DNA from: a virus
Strand: one strand, 5' to 3'
Virus record (IMG/VR): IMGVR_UViG_3300021437_000030
Coordinates: 1 to 47,358 of that record
Length of the DNA stretch: 47,358 nt
In this document: one piece after another, positions 2,451-47,358 of the stretch
How positions within the stretch are numbered: the stretch's first letter is position 1
How the letters are laid out: every line of letters begins with the position of its first letter
Notes under the pieces: generated by a model
The model's database searches: none
What the model was told of the DNA's origin: nothing
Seen by the model: the letters and a program-made list of their open reading frames with translations, nothing else
Program-made: the position numbers and the translations under genes

Positions 2451-3367
2451 TTTTGCACCTTTTTCATTTCCTCAGCCCTTGCTGCCTGCTGACGCTTGGC
2501 TAGTAACTCCAAGGCCAGCACCACATCAGCAGGATCCAGGATCTGAGGCACTGGAGAACTGTCTCGCCCACCCAGCGGAATGCGCGCATTGGCCAGCACC
2601 ATTGCCCCACCAAAGTTCGCGTCAGACTGACTGACCATGTACAAGAGATGCCGTGTCGGACTGCCCATCTGTGTGGCCTTCACCAACGGGAAGGTATACT
2701 TGAACCAGCTTGGAGCTGCTGTTATCAGTGCCTTTCCAAACAGATCAGGACCAGCAATGGGAGCCCGCGTATCTTGGTCCTGATCCAATCGGCGCATGCC
2801 GGCAGTCCAGATCAAATGCCCTGGCAGGGATTGGGACACTTTGATCAGATCCTCTAATCGAGTCTGCACCATGCCATAGTGGGACTTGTCCAGGCTGGCC
2901 ACATGCAGAGCGTCTTCCCCTGACCCAATGTCATTGATGAATGCCTTTGCCCCAATGCCCACTTGGGTGGGATCCGCGTGAGAGGTGCGAATGCGTTGAC
3001 CCAGCTTGTGGCCAATCTGGGTGGCTGAGTCAAAGGCATAACAGCCAATTTTGGGGTCCAACCCCGATACCCATGTGCGGTCCTTGACGACCATTCCCCG
3101 TGCCGCCCGTTCCGACCAGAGAAATGGATCCATGTCCGGTGTGTCACTGTGAGCGCACACTTGTATCGTTCCAGCGTCTACAATGGGGAGGATGGAGTCA
3201 AGCCCGCCATAGTCCCCGGTGTACAGCCGCGTCAAGAGCCCCGTCTCCTGCCGCAACCTGGAGGCGAATAAACCGATCTGGGTGGTTTTGCCGCTCCCTG
3301 TCAAACCCGTGAGCAAGATGGTGAGTCGCTTGAACACCCCAAAGATGGGTACGAGGACATCAGCCAA
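2447..3367 (-). CDS. Sak4-like phage ATPase (AAA_24 type, RecA-like core)
   Basis: 306 aa. Walker A GLTGSGKTT at residues 21-29 and a Walker B-like FDSAT near 112-116, the arrangement of phage nucleotide-binding proteins of the Sak4/AAA_24 group, which are RecA-core recombinases promoting single-strand annealing. Start TTG 3367 is supported by AGGAGG six bases upstream, placed at the end of the preceding small gene. The C-terminal ~30 residues are a charged helix. Neighbours (helicase, RecB-like nuclease, zinc protein) form a recombination module. Other RecA-fold ATPases cannot be excluded by eye. Confidence 0.75.
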   Translation of the reverse strand: MADVLVPIFGVFKRLTILLTGLTGSGKTTQIGLFASRLRQETGLLTRLYTGDYGGLDSILPIVDAGTIQVCAHSDTPDMDPFLWSERAARGMVVKDRTWVSGLDPKIGCYAFDSATQIGHKLGQRIRTSHADPTQVGIGAKAFINDIGSGEDALHVASLDKSHYGMVQTRLEDLIKVSQSLPGHLIWTAGMRRLDQDQDTRAPIAGPDLFGKALITAAPSWFKYTFPLVKATQMGSPTRHLLYMVSQSDANFGGAMVLANARIPLGGRDSSPVPQILDPADVVLALELLAKRQQAARAEEMKKVQK

Positions 3368-28905: not shown

Positions 28906-29514
28906 ATGCTCATCTACGTGCGGCACGGCGATACGGCCTTCAATGCTGGGGGTACTGAGGAACGGTTGCGGGGATGGTTACCCGTTCCCCTCACCCCCAA
29001 GGGCGAACAGTCCGCTAACCGTGCTGGACAGCGGCTACGGGGACTGGAACCGAACACGTTTGCCACCTCTGACCTCCATCGGGCCGCACAGTCCGCACAC
29101 ATCATCGGCCAACAGATCGGCCAACCGCCTGATCCTGATCCCGCCCTTCGAGACTGGAACACCGGAGACTTGGCTGGCCGGAAGTTTGAAGATGTCAAGG
29201 AGACGATTTTCCACTTGATCGACCATCCGGACAAGTCTGCTCCCGGCGGAGAATCCATCAACGAGTATCTGACCCGGTTCATCCCTGCCATGCGGACCAA
29301 GGTGGAAGATCCAGGAGTCCACCTCGTGGTCGGCCACGCGCGTGGGGGAATGGTGCTCCAGGGCATCGCATCTCCAGAAGGAGGAGTGGGCCAGGATCTG
29401 GACAAGCAGTTCCTGAAGACCCGCCCCAACTTCAGTCCGGGGGACATGCTGACCTTCCAGCCGACGTGGAAGATGAAGGTATTGAATGGCCACCAGGATC
29501 AGGAGCAGACCTGA
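28906..29514 (+). CDS. histidine phosphatase family protein
   Basis: 202 aa. VRHGDT (residues 5-10) is the catalytic RHG motif, and HLVVGHARGG near 140-150 supplies the second His. TSDLHRAAQSAHIIG matches the conserved S-x-L-x-R-A-x-Q-T-A block. The family includes phosphoglycerate mutase-like phosphatases acting on small molecules or proteins. The stop overlaps the next start (TGATG). A role in a virion operon is unexplained. Confidence 0.8.
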   Translation: MLIYVRHGDTAFNAGGTEERLRGWLPVPLTPKGEQSANRAGQRLRGLEPNTFATSDLHRAAQSAHIIGQQIGQPPDPDPALRDWNTGDLAGRKFEDVKETIFHLIDHPDKSAPGGESINEYLTRFIPAMRTKVEDPGVHLVVGHARGGMVLQGIASPEGGVGQDLDKQFLKTRPNFSPGDMLTFQPTWKMKVLNGHQDQEQT

Positions 29515-30797
29515 TGGGGGGCCAACTCAACGTGTACAATCTAGGGTCCAAGGGCGTCAATGTGGACACGTCCCCCCTGCACCTGGAGGACGGGGAGCTG
29601 ACGCTGGCTCAGAATGTTATTCAGGATCCGATTGGGGGAAAGGGAGGGATTGTCAACCGGCCTGGACTTGCGGCGTTTAGTGGGAGCGCCGCCGCAGGGA
29701 CGCTCGTAGGCGGGATTGGCGTACCGCTCTCGCAAGTGACGGCACATACGACATACATTGGGCGTCAGAACGCCGTTGGATGGTGGAAGTCCACCTCGGC
29801 GTTCACTACGACCGCGACACTCGTGTCGCTGCCAGCCCGAGCAGCGGATACCACCGACTTCACCAGCGATACCTATGAGGGCATTGCGGGTTGCTTTCTG
29901 AATGGGCAGTTCTACTACCCAGCCACTGGCTACTTGATCGGTACCGCCAATCCCTCCATTCGTGCCTTTGACGGCACGACTGACGTTGAAGTCGCACGGG
30001 TGGCTCCCCCGCCTGCCAATGGGTACACGATCTCCAATTATGGGATTGTCTCCATGATTGCAGCCAATGGGGTTGTGTACTTCATCACTCGGGATGGCGC
30101 CATTGCGACCCGTACTGGACGGGTGATGCAGCTCACACCAGCGACTGGTGTCGTCACCCAGCTTGGCTCCGACTTCACCGTGGCGAGTGGCCATACCCCT
30201 CAGTGTCTGTGTTGGCACGCAGGGCGTCTGTGGATGGGTACCTATGTTATCGGTGCGGCTGCCGCTGCCCATGTCTCGTACTTCCGTCCCGGTGTAGATA
30301 CCGATTGGACGACGGAACACAATACCACCACCTGCCGCGCTGTCAGCGCCTTGACATCCTTCAACGGTGAATTGTACGTCGGCCTCACACAGGCTGGAGG
30401 AACGGCGGCGACCATTGAACGGCGCAGCTCTCTTGGCGCATGGACGGCTGCGGTCGATACTGGAGCCACGACCAATGAGGGAAATACCTACTCTGCTGGT
30501 GTGGTCATTGGATCGGCCATCTACCACGCCTATGTCGATGCTCTCGTACCCTCTATGGTCATCCGCAAGTACGACGGATCGTCATGGACCACGGCATTTA
30601 CGGCGGCAGGGACCAACCGCAATCGTGTGGCTGTTCTCTCCACATGGAACAATATCACGTACGCGGCTGGCGGGACAGGGGGCAACCCCATCCTGCTGAG
30701 CACCCCTGATGGGACGACCTGGACTGATCGCAGCAGCAGCCTCGTGAATGCCGGAGCGGCATACGTGGTCCCGGCGATATTTGAGATTGGATCCTGA
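29514..30797 (+). CDS. putative tail / stabilisation protein
   Basis: 427 aa from ATG 29514. GSKGVNVDTSPLHLEDGELT then AQNVIQDPIGGKGGIVNRPG is a recurrent opening of podoviral tail-hub or head-completion proteins. The rest is a long beta-rich repeat region (many Thr/Gly; VARVAPPPANGYTISNYG, CWHAGRLWMGTYVIG) that could be a beta-propeller. Coupled to the next, similarly built protein. Confidence 0.65.
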   Translation: MGGQLNVYNLGSKGVNVDTSPLHLEDGELTLAQNVIQDPIGGKGGIVNRPGLAAFSGSAAAGTLVGGIGVPLSQVTAHTTYIGRQNAVGWWKSTSAFTTTATLVSLPARAADTTDFTSDTYEGIAGCFLNGQFYYPATGYLIGTANPSIRAFDGTTDVEVARVAPPPANGYTISNYGIVSMIAANGVVYFITRDGAIATRTGRVMQLTPATGVVTQLGSDFTVASGHTPQCLCWHAGRLWMGTYVIGAAAAAHVSYFRPGVDTDWTTEHNTTTCRAVSALTSFNGELYVGLTQAGGTAATIERRSSLGAWTAAVDTGATTNEGNTYSAGVVIGSAIYHAYVDALVPSMVIRKYDGSSWTTAFTAAGTNRNRVAVLSTWNNITYAAGGTGGNPILLSTPDGTTWTDRSSSLVNAGAAYVVPAIFEIGS

Positions 30798-32374
30798 TGT
30801 CCTTTACGTTATTGCAGGCGGGAACAGGGCTGCAATTGGTCACCAGTGCAGGAGTGATGGGATCTGCCTTGACACTGCCCACGAATATCACCCTGGACAG
30901 TACCAAAACCCCCCGGTTTGCCGTGTACGGGAAGTATGTGGTCATGGTGAACAGTCCCAGCCGCCCGCTGATCATTGACGGTACGGGAACGGTGCGGGTA
31001 TTGACACCCATGCCCCCTAGCAGCACGCCCACACTGACGGCTACTGGGGCTGGTACCCTCTCTGGAACGTACACGGGGGTGGCTCAGACTTTTGTGGTCA
31101 AGGATAGCAGCGGAAACATCATCAGTGAGAGTGGGTACGGACCTGCCGCCACAGGGTCAGTCGCATTGAACAATAACTTTCTCAAAGCAGCCAATCTCAC
31201 CCTGTCTGGAGACACCGTGACAGGCAGCCGCCTGTACCGTCCTACCACCCAGGGGACGATCTTGTTTCAATGGGTGGATCTGGATGGTAACACGCAAACC
31301 TCCGTGCAAGACGATACGAGCGATGCCGGAATCAGTCTCGTCGCTGCCCCAGTGCGAGGATCAGCCCCAGACCTGACCTTGATCGCGGAATGGCGCGCAC
31401 GGCTGTTTGGGGTGAGCCGCACCGATGTGGATACCCTCCGCTGGACTGAGGCTGGTACTATGTACGCATGGGGTGCGGCAAATACGCTGCCTATTCCCCG
31501 CATTGGTGCTGACACACGAGGTATCACGGCGTTTGCTCCCCGCAGGGAATTTCTGGGAGTGGGACGGCGTAATCTGCTTCAAGCGATTGTGGGAACCAGC
31601 AACAGCGATTTTCGAGTACTCAAAATCAGCGACAATGTGGGCATTGAGTCTCAAGAGTCTGTTGTAGTGATTCGGGATACCGCCTTCTTTCTCTGGAAGG
31701 ATGGGGTGTACACCTGGGGTCAGGATGGCGTGCAGTGTATCAGTGATGGCAAGGTGCGGAACTGGTTTGCTACGGATACCACATTTAATCGAGCTGTGTT
31801 CAACACCAGTTTTGCCCACTATGACAGCGTGAGGAATAAGTACAGACTGTTCCTGGCCGCAGCGGGTGGAACGACCATCAATCGCTGGGTCGAATACGAC
31901 CTCACCGATAAAACCTGGTGGGGGCCGCACCGGACAAGTGCGTTCTCCCCCACGTGTGCCGTTGTGGTCCCGAATGCCAACGATACCCTGGTGCCGATGA
32001 TTGGAGGGAGTGATGGCAATCTGTATCAAGAACAGGCCACGCGTACCGATGGGACCTCCACCGCCATCAGTTCCAGCTGGACCAGCAAGTTCCATGATGG
32101 CGGCACCCCTCATGTCGAGAAGTACTGGGATTTTCTGACGGTCTTGGGAGTTGTCCAAGCCGCGGGCACGGTGACGGTGACGCCCACACTGGGATATCTG
32201 AACAGCACTCCTGGCTCCTCTTTCACGTATGATCTGACCAAGGGCCGTCACCGTATTCGACGTCTCGGGGGTCCGGGGAAACTTGTGCAACTCAACTTTG
32301 CTCATGCCACGGTGGCCCAGGGCTGGTCCATCCTGGGATATGAGATCCCCTTTTTCGAGCTTGGGATTCGGTGA
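30797..32374 (+). CDS. large beta-rich tail protein
   Basis: 525 aa. ADLTLIAEW-type segments (APDLTLIAEWRARLFGVSRT), RGITAFAPRREFLGVGRRNL, RDTAFFLWKDGVYTWGQDGV and KYRLFLAAAGG repeat at blade-like spacing, again consistent with a beta-propeller tail hub or P22 gp10-like stabilisation protein. It may form one complex with the preceding protein, of which it could be a paralogue or second half. No catalytic motif seen. Confidence 0.65.
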   Translation: MSFTLLQAGTGLQLVTSAGVMGSALTLPTNITLDSTKTPRFAVYGKYVVMVNSPSRPLIIDGTGTVRVLTPMPPSSTPTLTATGAGTLSGTYTGVAQTFVVKDSSGNIISESGYGPAATGSVALNNNFLKAANLTLSGDTVTGSRLYRPTTQGTILFQWVDLDGNTQTSVQDDTSDAGISLVAAPVRGSAPDLTLIAEWRARLFGVSRTDVDTLRWTEAGTMYAWGAANTLPIPRIGADTRGITAFAPRREFLGVGRRNLLQAIVGTSNSDFRVLKISDNVGIESQESVVVIRDTAFFLWKDGVYTWGQDGVQCISDGKVRNWFATDTTFNRAVFNTSFAHYDSVRNKYRLFLAAAGGTTINRWVEYDLTDKTWWGPHRTSAFSPTCAVVVPNANDTLVPMIGGSDGNLYQEQATRTDGTSTAISSSWTSKFHDGGTPHVEKYWDFLTVLGVVQAAGTVTVTPTLGYLNSTPGSSFTYDLTKGRHRIRRLGGPGKLVQLNFAHATVAQGWSILGYEIPFFELGIR

Positions 32375-38582: not shown

Positions 38583-39353
38583 ATGCCCAAACCCCGAATT
38601 GTGTTGTATGACCTAGAGACATCACATAATCTGGCGGCGGTGTTCCAGCTCAAGCAGCAAGACAACTACATTCCCTACGACAACATCATTCAAGAACGAT
38701 ACATTATCTGTGCCTCGTGGAAGGTGCTGGGGGAAAAGGCTGTCCATGCCGTGAGTGTCCTGGATGATCCCAAGCGGTTTGCCAAGCACCCACAGGATGA
38801 CTTCCATGTCTGTACCGTCCTTCACCAGGTGCTCTCTGAATCCGATGTGATCGTGGCACATAATGGCGATCAGTTTGACCAGAAGTTTGTGGCCGCACGG
38901 TTTCTCATCCATGGCTTAGACCCCCTCCCGCCCATCACTTCCATCGACACCCTCACCGTCGCCCGCTCCCGCTTCCTGTTCAACGCCAATCACCTGGATT
39001 ACCTCGGCAACATCCTCAAAGTCGGACGCAAAAAGCCGACCACCGGAGGATTGTGGCTGCGGGTGCTTAAGGGTGATGCCTCAGCCGTCAGGGAGATGGT
39101 GAAGTACAACAAACAGGATGTGGCACTATTGGAGCGTGTCTTCCTCAAGCTTCGCCCCTACATGGCCAACCATGTCAATCGGGAGTTGTATGGAGAGCAG
39201 GGCTGTCCACGTTGTGGATCCCGTCGGGTGCAGGCGCGTGGCCTCCATCGCGCCATCAGTCGAGCCTATCAGCGGTGGCACTGTCAAGCCTGCGGTGGGT
39301 GGTACAAGAGCGTCAAAGCCGACCCCATTCGTACCACAAAGCGTACGCTCTAG
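38583..39353 (+). CDS. DEDD-type exonuclease with C-terminal zinc ribbon
   Basis: 256 aa. YDLETS (Asp10, Glu12), VAHNGDQFDQKF (Asp99 region) and YNKQDVALL (Asp179, with Tyr175) are the three Exo motifs of RNase H-like 3'-5' exonucleases (YprB/RNase_H_2 type). CPRC (208) and CQAC (234) form a zinc ribbon. All catalytic acids are present. Since the polymerase gene set carries its own exonuclease domain, this one may serve recombination or DNA end processing. The 142-base gap before it shows no gene. Confidence 0.8.
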   Translation: MPKPRIVLYDLETSHNLAAVFQLKQQDNYIPYDNIIQERYIICASWKVLGEKAVHAVSVLDDPKRFAKHPQDDFHVCTVLHQVLSESDVIVAHNGDQFDQKFVAARFLIHGLDPLPPITSIDTLTVARSRFLFNANHLDYLGNILKVGRKKPTTGGLWLRVLKGDASAVREMVKYNKQDVALLERVFLKLRPYMANHVNRELYGEQGCPRCGSRRVQARGLHRAISRAYQRWHCQACGGWYKSVKADPIRTTKRTL

Positions 39354-40617: not shown

Positions 40618-41520
40618 TCAATGCATATCTCCCCAGGAAATGCCTCGTTTCCCAGCTGATCCAATGCTGAGATGATTGCCCATTCCCCAGCCCGGATCCA
40701 GCGGCAATTGTGGAATGGGTTGCTCCATTTCTGCCTGCAATCGCTGATCCACCACATCCGCTAACGCAACGGGACACTCGCACAGGATCTCATCATGGAT
40801 GAACAGACGGAGATAGGGTCCTATCGGCGTTCCGCCCCACAGCCGCTTCAACACCTCTCGCCCAATAAAGGCTGCCATGTGTTGGGGAACAGACGCAATG
40901 AGCGCCTTTCCACTGTCCCCTAATTTTGACACCCACCGGCCGTCCACCTTCGACCAATCCCGCACGCGGAAAAAGCGCATCACGAACCCGCTGGGGGCCC
41001 GGACGTACCCGGTTTGGTCCACTTGCACAGTCAATCGCTCGTGCCACTGGGGGATTTCGGGGAACAAAGCGAAATACGCCCCTTGGCGACGTGACGCCTC
41101 CTGCTTGGTCGTGAAGGTTTCAGGGTATTCCTCAAAGATTTTGGCCGGGGTACCTGCGTAATTGGACAAATGCACGACCCTCTTTGCCACGTCACGCTCG
41201 GATGGGAAACGAGCCTTGAGACTGCGGAAACAGGCACGCAAATCATCGTCTGACCACCGCAAATCGGGCAAGTCAGCATCAGCGATCATCCCCGCTGGAC
41301 GAAGAATCCCATGAGCCATGAAGTAGTCATGAACACCCAATTTGGCCAACCGTGTGTACTTCGACGATCCCGCTAACCATCCCACCAGCACCGCCTCGAT
41401 GCCTGAAAAGTCTCGGGCGACGAATATGTGGCCAGGTGGGGCCACAAACATCTCCTTACAGTGTCTGGCCAAGGAGGACAGCGAGTATTCACCGCGCTGA
41501 GTCGAGGGGCCTTCGATCAT
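40618..41520 (-). CDS. polA: DNA polymerase A, C-terminal half (palm/fingers) as separate gene
   Basis: 300 aa, ATG 41520 overlapping the upstream stop (ATGA). FVAPPGHIFVARDFSGIE carries motif A (Asp37...Glu42), RDVAKRVVHLSNYAG is motif B (Lys113, Tyr121), and FIHDEI is motif C (His242-Asp243-Glu244). So both metal-binding Asp residues are present. It continues exactly where the upstream protein stops, so the two together form one family A polymerase. By hand alignment the residue at the E. coli Phe762 position is His117. The last ~40 residues are a Pro-rich tail. Confidence 0.85.
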   Translation of the reverse strand: MIEGPSTQRGEYSLSSLARHCKEMFVAPPGHIFVARDFSGIEAVLVGWLAGSSKYTRLAKLGVHDYFMAHGILRPAGMIADADLPDLRWSDDDLRACFRSLKARFPSERDVAKRVVHLSNYAGTPAKIFEEYPETFTTKQEASRRQGAYFALFPEIPQWHERLTVQVDQTGYVRAPSGFVMRFFRVRDWSKVDGRWVSKLGDSGKALIASVPQHMAAFIGREVLKRLWGGTPIGPYLRLFIHDEILCECPVALADVVDQRLQAEMEQPIPQLPLDPGWGMGNHLSIGSAGKRGISWGDMH

Positions 41521-43442
41521 CGTGGGAGGTTTTGCAAATTTGGCGCCCGCATACTTGTCCGCAGCGTAGAGGGGGCGTTGGTAAATTGTGCATGAACACG
41601 GCCATCGATGCCCACGCGAAATCCCCCGACCAACGCCCCATCGACCACTTTCCCAATGTACGTGCCCGATAGCTTCCCCAACTTGCGATCGTCCATGATA
41701 AGGGGGTACAAGGGGTCCGTGTGGTACTTTGCCCGCAGCTTCTTCAGCGCCTTGATGTCAGTCGTGGGTTTCCGCTGCTCCCCTTTCCCCACCATGACCG
41801 GTTGCTGACCCTTGAGCTTCTGGTAGACCAGGATTTGCTTGGGACTGGGAATGAATGGCTGACGACGAACCCACCGGAGAACACCTTCCTGTACAGTACG
41901 TACTGTACAGGTACTACACGGATTGTCTTTTTTCTTGTACAGTTTGAAGTGGGGCTTCTTGGGGTTAAGGAGACCACACCCCGAGCACCGTTTCACTGTT
42001 TGGGCATTGAACAGATGTTCAGCCAGTACCTCCCCAGGTTCGAGGAGACCGCGCAAGGTATCAAGGTCGGGGGTGCGGACATACCCCTGCTTCGGCTCCA
42101 TGCGACACGCCTCAGGCGGTACCACCTGTTGCATTTTGGCGCGACACTCCTGTTGAAGGTCGGTCAGTTCTTGCGCGAACTGGAAGCGTTTTTGAGCATC
42201 AATCGGCATCCCCGCCGAGGACATCGCCGTCCAGATCACATCCAGCGCGAGGATCTGGCCCTCATACACCCCCCACAAACCGTGTGCCTTCAAATCCTTG
42301 CAGATTTTCAAGTGGTTGACATCAGCGGCATAGGCGTCTTGTGCATTGTAGTGCGCGGGCTGGGTGCTGCTGGTGTGTTTCCACATGGCCAGCCGAGGGT
42401 TAAGGAAACTGGCGACATGACCAAGCGAGCGGCGCAAATCGCTGTTGAGCACATGCCAGGATTCCATTCCATCATGCTGTACCCCACCAACGCGCATCCC
42501 CGAAGCCAATACGCGAGGAATGTCAAACGACTTATTCCACCACAGTTTGTCGTAGGGGCTTTCCAGGAGCCGCAGATGCGCCAGGTGGTAGGGACCGGCC
42601 CATGGCATGCTTAGGACGTGTGGACCTGATTCATCGTGGTAGCTGTACCCACACCGCAAGATTGTATAACTGCGGTCCTTGATCTCTTCCTCGACCGGGT
42701 CTTCCAGCTCGTCCTCGGCCGCGTCCTTGTCAGACGTTTCAATATCGCACGACAGATGGGACACCACACCACGGGGTACGGCTGCAAGGTACGACTCAAC
42801 CCACGCAAGTGCGTCCGCTGGAGTGGGGTCAAGGACGTAGAATGCCGTGTCAAGATAGCTAAAGCTGTCTCGGGCGATTTCCACTGCTTTGGTAAGGTCA
42901 TGGATGAAGACCGCGGTTAACGAGGTTTGACCCCGGAGGATGCGTGCGGGGTGAATCGTGGGGACGACCCATGTCTTCCACCCATCCGGATGAATGTATT
43001 CATGGACGTATCCCCGAGCATCGTCAACGCCCACAGGGCAATCGGGCAGCATTCGACGTGTAGCCACGCTTCCACAAGCCAGCACAGCCCGAGGACGCAT
43101 ACGCTCAATCTCAGCCGCCAAGTACTGGTGGCACCGTGCCAGCACCTCCTCGGTGTAGGATTGTCCCGAGAGATGGTTGTTGGGAGGACGGCACCAGAGG
43201 ACGTTGGCGATGCGAAAGTCGTCTCGCACATACCCAGCACGCTGGAGCATGGTGCCAAACTGGAAACCGGACTTGCCGATGACGGGGGTGCCTTCACGAC
43301 TCTCTTCTTCTCCTGCCGCTTCGAGAACGACGAGGACACCATTCTTGCCGGTTCCGGCAGCGGGCACGAATCCAAACCCAGGGACAGGGCAGGGCCAAGC
43401 ATATCCCGGACATCCCTCACATTGAATTCCTTTAGGCAACAT
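41517..43442 (-). CDS. uracil-DNA glycosylase – 3'-5' exonuclease – PolA N-terminal part
   Basis: 641 aa in three parts. (1) Residues 1-190: family-4 uracil-DNA glycosylase: EAAGEEESREGTPVIG (41-56), NVLWCRPPN, TIHPAR (163-167) and four cysteines at 8, 11, 84, 104 matching the iron-sulfur ligands. (2) Residues ~225-385: exonuclease with CDIETS (Asp233/Glu235), WWNKSFDIPR (Asp307) and YNAQDA (Tyr365/Asp369). (3) Residues ~395-641: polymerase thumb with a zinc ribbon insert (CSGC 486, CSTC 509) ending TSMRAPNLQNLPR, the block that precedes motif A. The palm is in the next gene. Confidence 0.85.
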   Translation of the reverse strand: MLPKGIQCEGCPGYAWPCPVPGFGFVPAAGTGKNGVLVVLEAAGEEESREGTPVIGKSGFQFGTMLQRAGYVRDDFRIANVLWCRPPNNHLSGQSYTEEVLARCHQYLAAEIERMRPRAVLACGSVATRRMLPDCPVGVDDARGYVHEYIHPDGWKTWVVPTIHPARILRGQTSLTAVFIHDLTKAVEIARDSFSYLDTAFYVLDPTPADALAWVESYLAAVPRGVVSHLSCDIETSDKDAAEDELEDPVEEEIKDRSYTILRCGYSYHDESGPHVLSMPWAGPYHLAHLRLLESPYDKLWWNKSFDIPRVLASGMRVGGVQHDGMESWHVLNSDLRRSLGHVASFLNPRLAMWKHTSSTQPAHYNAQDAYAADVNHLKICKDLKAHGLWGVYEGQILALDVIWTAMSSAGMPIDAQKRFQFAQELTDLQQECRAKMQQVVPPEACRMEPKQGYVRTPDLDTLRGLLEPGEVLAEHLFNAQTVKRCSGCGLLNPKKPHFKLYKKKDNPCSTCTVRTVQEGVLRWVRRQPFIPSPKQILVYQKLKGQQPVMVGKGEQRKPTTDIKALKKLRAKYHTDPLYPLIMDDRKLGKLSGTYIGKVVDGALVGGFRVGIDGRVHAQFTNAPSTLRTSMRAPNLQNLPR

Positions 43443-44841: not shown

Positions 44842-45348
44842 TCATCTCCATGTCCAGATGTCACTTGAATAGGGCGGCGCATCCTCATCTCCAAACAGGA
44901 CGAGCATACAATCCTTCGGATACAACCAGTTTGGCTTGTCGGGGATGAACGGGATCCGTCCATTCAAAAACAGCACCCGCACGCCATACGCTCCATGAAT
45001 GTAATCGCGAAACCAGTTGCTCCCAACAGAAGCCGGGACGAGGAAGGCGATTTTCGCGCCCTGTCGCGAGGCTTCCAGACACTTCTTCGCCCACGGGCCA
45101 ATACTGGCGTAGGGTGGGTTAAGCCACCCCCAGTCCGATCCACATTGCCGTTTCCATGCCGCAGGGGGCTGTGAGAGGGCATCGTTGGTGATCATCCAAT
45201 AACGTGAAGCTTTGTGGTTAGATAGATCCGCGGCGAAGTCGAAAGCAAAACGATCAATTGACAAGAGTGACTTCACTGCATTGATGAAGATCATTGGTGT
45301 AGCGTAGTCTTGCTTTGAACGATGAGGCCGCTGTTGAGGCACCGTCAT
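44842..45348 (-). CDS. dam: phage N6-adenine DNA methyltransferase (Dam family)
   Basis: 168 aa from ATG 45348 (a GTG one codon earlier overlaps the Dcm stop). SKQDYATPMIFINAVKSLL is the conserved opening of phage Dam-type MTases, FDFAADLSNHKASRYW the SAM-binding block, and WGWLNPPYASIGPW the NPPY catalytic motif (about residues 77-80). Single-domain length is normal for this family. Adjacent to a C5-MTase, so the pair probably protects the phage from restriction. Confidence 0.9.
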   Translation of the reverse strand: MTVPQQRPHRSKQDYATPMIFINAVKSLLSIDRFAFDFAADLSNHKASRYWMITNDALSQPPAAWKRQCGSDWGWLNPPYASIGPWAKKCLEASRQGAKIAFLVPASVGSNWFRDYIHGAYGVRVLFLNGRIPFIPDKPNWLYPKDCMLVLFGDEDAPPYSSDIWTWR

Positions 45349-45371
45349 CACGTCTCCTGCACCGGGGCATA
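45343..45371. repeat. 29-bp direct repeat at dcm 3' end
   Basis: Matches 46451-46479 at 26 of 29 positions. Both copies code for YAPVQET plus the stop and the start region of the next gene. Confidence 0.8.
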
Positions 45372-46448
45372 GGCTCGATATTCCATGTACGCCTCTATGA
45401 ACGCTTGTGCGACTTGCGGCACGATAGCATTGCCGTAACCCCGCAATCGTCCCATACGCGCGGGTACCCCATAAGCCAGCGGGAATGTGCCGGATTCAAC
45501 TGGCCGCGATCTGTTGTCAATACAGGGGATCCAGTCACACGCAGTCCATGCGTGATCTGGTAGTCGAGACTGTCGCCGATCTTGTCCGGCCGACGACGAG
45601 CGCGACTGACACCCTGTCCTTTGTAGTCTCGTGCCAGTCGAGTCTTGCGACTGTTCTGTGAGTCGCCGACCTCGTTGTAGCCCTTCTGGGCGGGTGTCCC
45701 CGCCATTGGTGCCGGCCACCCCGCAAGACTGGAAGCCTGACCGAGAGTCATCCCAAATCCGTTGCCGTTCTTGTGTTGGGCCTTCAACGTCACTCGACGC
45801 CTTTGCCACGTTGTATCTCCGTCGTTTTGTGGTCCTGCGTTGGGAGTCGGCCACGATGTCAGCATCACAAAGTCTTGAAGGTTGCTGCCGTGTCGCGTCG
45901 TACCGACTGCCTGCTTGGCTTGCCCTCCACGATGGGCGTCGTGTACTTGAGTGGTCGGCCACGAAGTACAATCGTTGTCGGATATGCGGTGCCCCGACGC
46001 TGTGTGCGCCCAATATAACCGTCCCAACGGCGTAGTCTTCTCCCTCCAAGTCTCCCGAAACAAGATCGAACCACGTAGTTGCATTTGCAACTTGTTCACC
46101 AAACACGACTGAAGGGCGACACTCACGGATGAGATTGAACCAGATGGGCCAGAGGTGCCGTATATCGGCAAATCCTTTTTGCCTGCCCGCCGCCGAGAAC
46201 GGCTGACACGGACAACTGCCGGTCCAGACGGGACGGTTATTGGGCCATCCAGCAAGCCGCAGCGCATAGGCCCAGCCGCCGATTCCCGCGAAGAAGTGGC
46301 AGTGGGCGTACGGCGCGAGATCGCTTGGTGCGATATCTGTGATAGATCGGTCATCCACGTCTCCATCGGGTAAGGCACCTTGTCGAATTAACTCACGCAG
46401 CCACGCCGCTGTCTTGGGATCGTTCTCATTGTAATAGGCGACCAACAT
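45348..46448 (-). CDS. dcm: DNA (cytosine-5) methyltransferase
   Basis: 366 aa from ATG 46448, seven bases after the upstream stop; the longer frame to 46646 overlaps that gene and is not needed. FFAGIGGWAYALRLAG (motif I, 52-67), SCPCQPFS (catalytic Cys81, motif IV), VVFGEQVA (ENV-type motif VI), GAPHIRQRLYFVA (motif VIII), and near the end SGTFPLAYGVPARMGRLRGY then GNAIVPQVAQAF (motifs IX-X). A complete enzyme. The recognition region between residues ~165 and 310 overlaps another frame (45395-45985) that also looks conserved. The last residues (YAPVQET) recur in the next gene. Confidence 0.9.
   Translation of the reverse strand: MLVAYYNENDPKTAAWLRELIRQGALPDGDVDDRSITDIAPSDLAPYAHCHFFAGIGGWAYALRLAGWPNNRPVWTGSCPCQPFSAAGRQKGFADIRHLWPIWFNLIRECRPSVVFGEQVANATTWFDLVSGDLEGEDYAVGTVILGAHSVGAPHIRQRLYFVADHSSTRRPSWRASQAGSRYDATRQQPSRLCDADIVADSQRRTTKRRRYNVAKASSDVEGPTQERQRIWDDSRSGFQSCGVAGTNGGDTRPEGLQRGRRLTEQSQDSTGTRLQRTGCQSRSSSAGQDRRQSRLPDHAWTACDWIPCIDNRSRPVESGTFPLAYGVPARMGRLRGYGNAIVPQVAQAFIEAYMEYRAYAPVQET
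45395..45985 (-). other. second open frame inside dcm with Dcm-tail-like sequence
   Basis: In the +1 frame relative to dcm, from about 45985 to the stop at 45395 (the frame itself is open from 46378), the reading gives CTSWPTTQVHDAHRGG, LTSWPTPNAGPQND, NGNGFGMTLGQASSLAGW and GQLNPAHSRWLMGYP then VWDDCGVTAM. These are the blocks I associate with the recognition region and C terminus of many phage Dcm proteins. No start signal was found, so expression would need a +1 frameshift near the LYFVA codons or an internal start. Confidence 0.5.
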
Positions 46449-46450
46449 AT

Positions 46451-46479
46451 CGTCATCACGTCTCTTGGACAGGGGCATA
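46451..46479. repeat. 29-bp direct repeat at DUF6745 gene 3' end
   Basis: Second copy of the 45343-45371 repeat. Confidence 0.8.
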
Positions 46480-47358
46480 CGCCTCACCGCGTAATCCCGA
46501 CAGTGACGCCACGGCATTGCGGGCAGTGAACGTCTGTGGTTTCTGACGCACGAGAAATTCCCGCTGTCGATCCTCAGACCAGTCACCCGGTGGCAACGGG
46601 CGTAGCTGTGGATCGGTACGCAACCAGTACGACTTCGCCGTTCCATCAGGTTCTGGTGTAGAGTTCAGCACGCGAATCATCACCAACGGTTCATCGCCCG
46701 GTACGTCAACCTGATACAGATCACCAAAACCATCGCAGTGGACAGGCAGTGCACCACTCTCTCGCACAAAGCGTTCCTCTCCGAAGCGCGCCAACATCAC
46801 CCGCCGGACTTCCGCGTTGGGTTCTGCAAGGATCTCCGCTGGTGTCAGTGTCGCGGGTGTCTCGACCACGCGTTGAGACACACGGACACCGTGTATCGCC
46901 CACACACCCCAACCATCAGGCCAGACGATGGCTGGACCATCATTGCAATGCAAGCGGTGTGACCCCCAGCCACGAGGATGTGCCGGGTCCACGAGTTCAC
47001 GATGAATGATCAACGGACGTTCGCATACCATGATGAAGTCACGATGCGGCCACCACCAGCACGCCGATTCCAGCGCGTGCTCGTAGGCCTTCCCGCGTGC
47101 CCACAGATCGCCCAGCAGTTCGAGATGACAGACTTCACGAAAAAAAGAGGTCCATGCACCGCCCCAGTACCGCCCACTACCAACCCAAAATTGCCCTCCT
47201 AAATAGTTAGTCCAAGTACGTTGTATTGTGTCCCGGACCGCGTTGCGAATTACGTTGCCAACCGCGTCGCCAACCGCGTCGCCAACCGCGCCGTGAACCG
47301 CGTCGTCAACCGCGCTGCCAACTGCGTTGTGAATCGCGCCGCCAACCGCGCCGTGAAC
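46456..47358 (-). CDS. DUF6745-type protein with V-x-x-A repeats, N terminus beyond window
   Basis: The frame is open from the window edge to 46456 (300 codons visible), so the 5' end is missing. The first ~45 visible residues are a four-residue repeat (AVGDAVGDAVGN type), followed by LGGQFWVGSGRYWGGAW, ESACWWWPHRDF, CERPLIIHRE, RLHCNDGPAIVWPDGWGVW, AIHGVRV, NSTPEPDGTAKSYWLR. This order and the N-terminal repeat are characteristic of DUF6745 proteins, widespread in bacteria and phages and of unknown function. The internal ATG at 47031 is not the real start. Confidence 0.8.
   Translation of the reverse strand, partial: VHGAVGGAIHNAVGSAVDDAVHGAVGDAVGDAVGNVIRNAVRDTIQRTWTNYLGGQFWVGSGRYWGGAWTSFFREVCHLELLGDLWARGKAYEHALESACWWWPHRDFIMVCERPLIIHRELVDPAHPRGWGSHRLHCNDGPAIVWPDGWGVWAIHGVRVSQRVVETPATLTPAEILAEPNAEVRRVMLARFGEERFVRESGALPVHCDGFGDLYQVDVPGDEPLVMIRVLNSTPEPDGTAKSYWLRTDPQLRPLPPGDWSEDRQREFLVRQKPQTFTARNAVASLSGLRGEAYAPVQET
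47222..47358. repeat. 12-base tandem repeat at right window edge
   Basis: About eleven degenerate units of AACCGCGTCGCC type. On the minus strand each codes for V-x-x-A. The assembly probably stops here because of the repeat. Confidence 0.85.

Follow-up and report, generated by a model that had tools for sequence, protein, structure and literature searches.

The family A DNA polymerase of the viral DNA analysed here (47,358 nt, the window) is split over two overlapping genes, and is quite probably a naturally split replicative polymerase that arose by insertional fission and is made as two coupled subunits. As originally predicted, two open reading frames share an ATGA; both lie on the minus strand (Table 1). 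The predicted domain order and catalytic residues were likewise borne out, by Pfam and PHROG matches and by invariant or nearly invariant columns in the clade alignments. A single profile, PHROG_17 (DNA polymerase), covered both genes, at profile positions 544–987 and then 994–1233, so that almost none of the profile is missing between them.

Table 1. Features of the split polymerase locus (positions in the window; residues numbered within each gene product).
Feature	Position	Strand	Description
Gene 1	41517..43442	(-)	641 aa; family-4-type uracil-DNA glycosylase, DEDDy 3'-5' exonuclease, and polymerase thumb to PNLQNLPR
Uracil-DNA glycosylase domain	42867..43442	(-)	aa 1–192; Pfam PF03167; PDB 1l9g/1vk2/4zbx/1ui0 by sequence and fold
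DEDDy exonuclease	42333..42758	(-)	D233, E235, D307, Y365, D369; Klenow match, invariant columns
Cys/His cluster	41916..41987	(-)	C486, C489, H498, C509; insertion before thumb; fully or nearly invariant across 14 members
R628...PNLQNLPR641	41520..41561	(-)	Klenow R668-Q677-P680; polymerase active-site residues remaining on chain 1
A_AAT_TTG heptamer	41535..41541	(-)	gene 1 frame, 22 nt before stop; possible, probably non-functional -1 site
ATGA	41517..41520	(-)	gene 2 start over gene 1 stop
Extra segment	41494..41520	(-)	27 nt coding MIEGPSTQR; absent from all relatives; AF2 pLDDT < 50 (residues 1–12)
Gene 2	40618..41520	(-)	300 aa; palm and fingers of family A DNA polymerase, motifs A, B, and C
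Motif A	41395..41412	(-)	D37 ... E42; invariant
Motif B	41158..41196	(-)	R109, K113, H117, Y121; K113 and H117 invariant, R109 nearly so
Motif C	40792..40797	(-)	H242, D243; invariant

In Pfam, gene 1 matched UDG (PF03167, E = 2.9e-16) and an N-terminal portion of DNA_pol_A (E = 4.9e-9). Its glycosylase domain has the hallmarks of family 4 uracil-DNA glycosylases, namely the fold, four Fe-S cysteines (C8, C11, C84, and C104), the catalytic Glu and Asn, and an HP motif (H164-P165). In a 14-member clade alignment, these cysteines together with E41, N80, and H164 were nearly or fully invariant, and the five exonuclease residues of Table 1 as well as T626, R628, P634, N635, and Q637 at the end of the thumb were invariant. 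The residues needed for glycosylase activity are thus present but, because LEAAG replaces GEAPG in motif 1, activity is likely but not certain. The Cys-Cys-His-Cys cluster, conserved throughout the clade, is a probable zinc finger. Alignment to Klenow (query 539–640 to chain 267–357, constant numbering offset of 40) placed the end of chain 1 at approximately Klenow residue 681, with R668, N675, and Q677 retained, and the beginning of chain 2 before motif A. The structure model of gene 1 best matched family-4 glycosylases, followed by PolI structures and 9QHS. Folded alone, gene 1 had a lower pLDDT (76.5) than gene 2, and the poorest part was its C-terminal tip, which would pack on the partner chain.

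Gene 2 matched a C-terminal portion of DNA_pol_A (E = 6.6e-11) and was modelled with a pLDDT of 92.7, except for its disordered-scoring first residues (Table 1); Foldseek matched the model to Klenow/Taq. Conservation of its motifs was scored over 19 clade members. Across the two chains, all features expected of family A were found: the motif A Asp, R-x3-K-x7-Y, HD, and a Klenow-like thumb and exonuclease. By spacing, H117 corresponds to E. coli F762 in the O helix and is an invariant His clade-wide. A survey of phage PolA sequences retained only Phe, Tyr, and Leu at the F762-equivalent position (PMC9069017), and a His-bearing clade would therefore have been missed.

The -1 relation of the two frames, which had been taken to leave room for a frameshift product or a sequencing indel, was confirmed. 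It cannot by itself place an indel, since the gene 2 frame has no stop in the 79 codons that precede its ATG; homology does, as that of gene 1 reaches the last codon and that of gene 2 begins at approximately residue 10–16. No Shine-Dalgarno sequence was found ahead of the gene 2 ATG; about half of the window genes have none, and 4-nt overlaps occur at other gene pairs in the window. No ORF lies between the polymerase halves in the window, and their overlap does not fit a gene interrupted by a group I intron.

The palm and the capsid gene served as queries to recover relatives, whose polymerases were 35–49% identical to that of the window. The resulting clade comprises about 27 glycosylase-exonuclease-PolA polymerases, which were called single or split by running a clade profile on stop-to-stop frames; 27 members were placed on a tree. 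Twenty have a single open frame and seven, including the window, are split. Most of the clade has one open polymerase frame of ~900–946 aa. Among the phages with the capsid family of the window (56–59%), four of five polymerases were intact, as one frame of 926–946 aa. Close relatives thus carry glycosylase, exonuclease, and PolA in one polypeptide, which in the window is interrupted by the thumb/palm break. A continuous gene in all close relatives had been named beforehand as evidence against a genuine split, and the outcome was mixed: of the nearest relatives (46–49% identical), L042 has a single gene, as do most others, whereas L041, the best-supported sister of the window (100/96), is split elsewhere. 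The same junction, sought in related phage contigs, was shared by none of them, and the split of the window is a singleton. Searches via capsid, terminase, and palm genes and in bacterial genomes gave no relative closer than 49%. A pattern search of IMG/VR for the exact PNLQNxPx-TGA split gave 10 matches, none of them in a polymerase frame, and alignments mixing distant polymerases diverged too far to serve as search query.

The splits of the clade fall in three regions: the exonuclease, the end of the thumb, and the thumb-palm loop. Two are accompanied by HNH-type endonuclease ORFs (L050 and L064) and one by a small zinc-ribbon ORF (L041). In L041, the exonuclease domain is cut by this 40-codon ORF (2814–2936), which starts in TAATG, ends on ATGA, and is thereby coupled on both sides. 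L043 and L054, well-diverged sisters (100/100) with a split common to both, are cut at the end of the thumb, after TYIGR, and their gene 2 restarts at GTG or TTG, 4 nt after GGGAGG. L050 and L059 are split in the same region. L050 has an Endonuclease VII-type ORF between the halves (PF02945, E = 9e-20; 2832–3203), while gene 1 of L059 has a 60-aa tail and an overlapping ATG. Since the gene 1 tail of L050 (VLQPGEKW) resembles that of L059 (VTLSPEQKW), the sequences suggest that L059 lost an insert like that of L050. In L064, the thumb-palm loop is split by a 2-kb insert in which an HNH_3-like ORF (2607–3077) was weakly matched, below the cut-off (E = 0.0035), so that an endonuclease lies between the halves in L050 and probably in L064; the intervening ORFs of both are likely homing endonucleases. 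Parsimony required at least four changes between single and split and, given the different split sites, there are at least five split forms. A group I intron sought in L039/L010 had no match in Rfam. In the more distant L001 and L002, a glycosylase-exonuclease gene and a polymerase gene are parted at the exonuclease/polymerase boundary, and the L002 glycosylase is without Fe-S cysteines.

The length of the thumb-palm loop pointed to the origin of the break in the window. The stretch from PNLQ to motif A has 50 aa in the window vs. 33–42 in the 24 other members with both motifs readable, and the ~9 excess residues sit exactly at the break, at the start of gene 2. Omitting MIEGPSTQR from the alignment restored the R-G of L041, L043, and L054, and one ~26-nt insertion between the R and G codons would hence suffice. 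Such a single insertion would account for the stop, the start, the -1 frame, and the extra residues together, and we propose that the MIEGPSTQR segment is a remnant of the insertion that caused the fission. No second copy of the 26-nt segment was found in the window at ≤3 mismatches. A tandem duplication at the junction, hinted at by PST.R on both sides, was rejected, as its score was matched by 66 of 300 shuffles.

Loss of one base at or just before the TGA, by an error of assembly or sequencing, could instead have broken a continuous polymerase gene. This fits the -1 frame relation, the single occurrence of the split, and the one frame seen in four of the five related-capsid phages and in most of the clade. 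However, it would also need ~9 aa to have been added in frame at this very position by an unrelated event, and random deletions seldom yield this junction: only 0.6% of simulated single-base deletions in intact relatives (n = 40,836) produced an ATGA junction carrying no more than one foreign codon. No other window gene was frame-broken in a translated comparison with five related phages, and the polymerase was the sole window gene to be matched in two frames by single ORFs of relatives, bar one gene pair that a single relative has as one ORF (L116:472–3303) and that other relatives, like the window, keep separate. Six other clade members are, moreover, split by other means. Recurrent splitting in the clade and the extra residues at the break thus favour natural fission over a sequencing mistake, which we consider unlikely.

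It is very unlikely that a fused protein is produced by -1 ribosomal frameshifting, whether alone or beside the two separate chains. The -1 frame that is open upstream of gene 2 does overlap a stretch of gene 1 with one in-frame X_XXY_YYZ heptamer, but a slip there would give PNLAKPPT for PNLQNLPR, replacing the conserved QNLPR by AKPPT; as the zero frame preserves QNLPR past the heptamer, a functional chain 1 has to be translated without a shift up to the stop. The heptamer is also not conserved, relatives having other codons at this place, no stable RNA structure was found downstream (z 0.48), and finding one or more such heptamers across 79 codons would be no surprise (~0.3 expected by estimate). 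Highly improbable, finally, is a decaying gene, in which the split inactivates the polymerase and the phage relies on other replication enzymes, for instance those of the host. A split gene can be a pseudogene, and a separate exonuclease-subunit gene lies nearby (38583–39353). Against decay, both sides of the break retain all their catalytic and structural residues, 941 codons contain no second break, and none of the window genes scanned was recognised as another polymerase.

Under the favoured natural fission, the ancestor would have been one glycosylase-exonuclease-polymerase chain, in which a ~26-nt insertion into a thumb-palm surface loop would have created a TGA stop and, overlapping it, an ATG start. 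The ribosome would finish chain 1 and restart at once on chain 2, by coupled translation at the ATGA. Uracil-DNA glycosylase, proofreading exonuclease, and thumb would come from chain 1, as would the strand bearing R628 and Q637 (Klenow R668 and Q677), and chain 2 would supply the fingers and both catalytic aspartates. We infer that the two chains assemble one polymerase and, because its active site draws residues from both, activity would be expected only as a complex. A two-subunit polymerase, as proposed in the original prediction, is hence the best reading with seven of 27 clade members split. The glycosylase, whose intact residues would allow the screening of template uracil suggested originally, may remove uracil from the DNA being copied and/or help to hold the enzyme on it. 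In poxviruses, a uracil glycosylase holds the polymerase on DNA. It is rather doubtful that the split is kept by selection, with chain 1 in excess or working alone in uracil removal, proofreading, or clamping, and the palm-finger chain docking to give a trans-assembled active site. If it were, the clade would constitute a natural series of independently split polymerases.

The glycosylase fusion was already known from PaBG and ten related phages (PMC7412058), and 9QHS contains a related domain. The polymerases of this PaBG gp205/Lupandier group have the same order of glycosylase, 3'-5' exonuclease, and family A polymerase as the window, but in a single gene, with no split reported, and in jumbo myophages, whereas the window is a podovirus-like 47-kb contig. 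The phiLo family A polymerase (PDB 9QHS, released 2026-03-25) also has a UDG-like N-terminal domain, but is a longer single chain and only distantly similar, with a match to residues 15–151 of 1142. Glycosylase-exonuclease-PolA modules like that of the window, at under 30% identity, also occur in the Caudoviricetes ctLwi270 (MW202554), vir526 (BK063670), and ctfzr933 (MW202455); the latter two are single-gene, while ctLwi270 has two genes like the window, but cut at the exonuclease/polymerase boundary.

Split polymerases have been published as well. In the OM43 phages MEP401 and MEP402 (PMC10580990), exonuclease and thumb are followed by a palm gene, with the break between PNLQN and motif A as in the window, but there is no glycosylase and the halves are separated by a 77-codon ORF; an intron was suggested by the authors. 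The break in MEP401, an unrelated isolate, is thus in the same thumb-palm loop as that of the window. In T4-related Aeromonas phages, the PolB halves gp43A and gp43B co-purify and are polymerase-active (PMC2988022); as in the window, a replicative polymerase comes from two genes, but it belongs to family B and an endonuclease gene or intercistronic sequence separates the halves. In the limited library of literature searched, we did not find the combination of fusion and split, a break without an intervening ORF, or recurrent splitting in one clade. What is new, as read from sequence, is a clade of ~27 members with splits at three regions. A family A polymerase apparently tolerates a thumb/palm break within its active-site-forming region, and one phage clade appears to have undergone several separate splits of its polymerase gene, in some cases with endonuclease ORFs still in place. 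This would offer natural cut sites for the engineering of split polymerases and a test case for genes becoming subunits. With a uracil glycosylase attached to the polymerase, a possible connection of copying with uracil repair could be tested in a single small system.

Elsewhere in the window, two adjacent structural genes (29466–32374) are fused as a 944-aa ORF (L116:472–3303) in the relative G005 only. The exonuclease gene at 38583–39353 (+), present despite the polymerase's own exonuclease, was annotated as 'DNA polymerase exonuclease subunit' (PHROG 403, E = 2.8e-69; RNase_H_2) and is 64% identical to an ORF of G005. Adenine and cytosine-5 DNA methyltransferase genes with a 4-nt overlap (44842–46646, minus strand) adjoin the polymerase operon, and a gene for a DUF6745 protein (46456–47031, minus strand; E = 1.2e-45) has the same operon direction.
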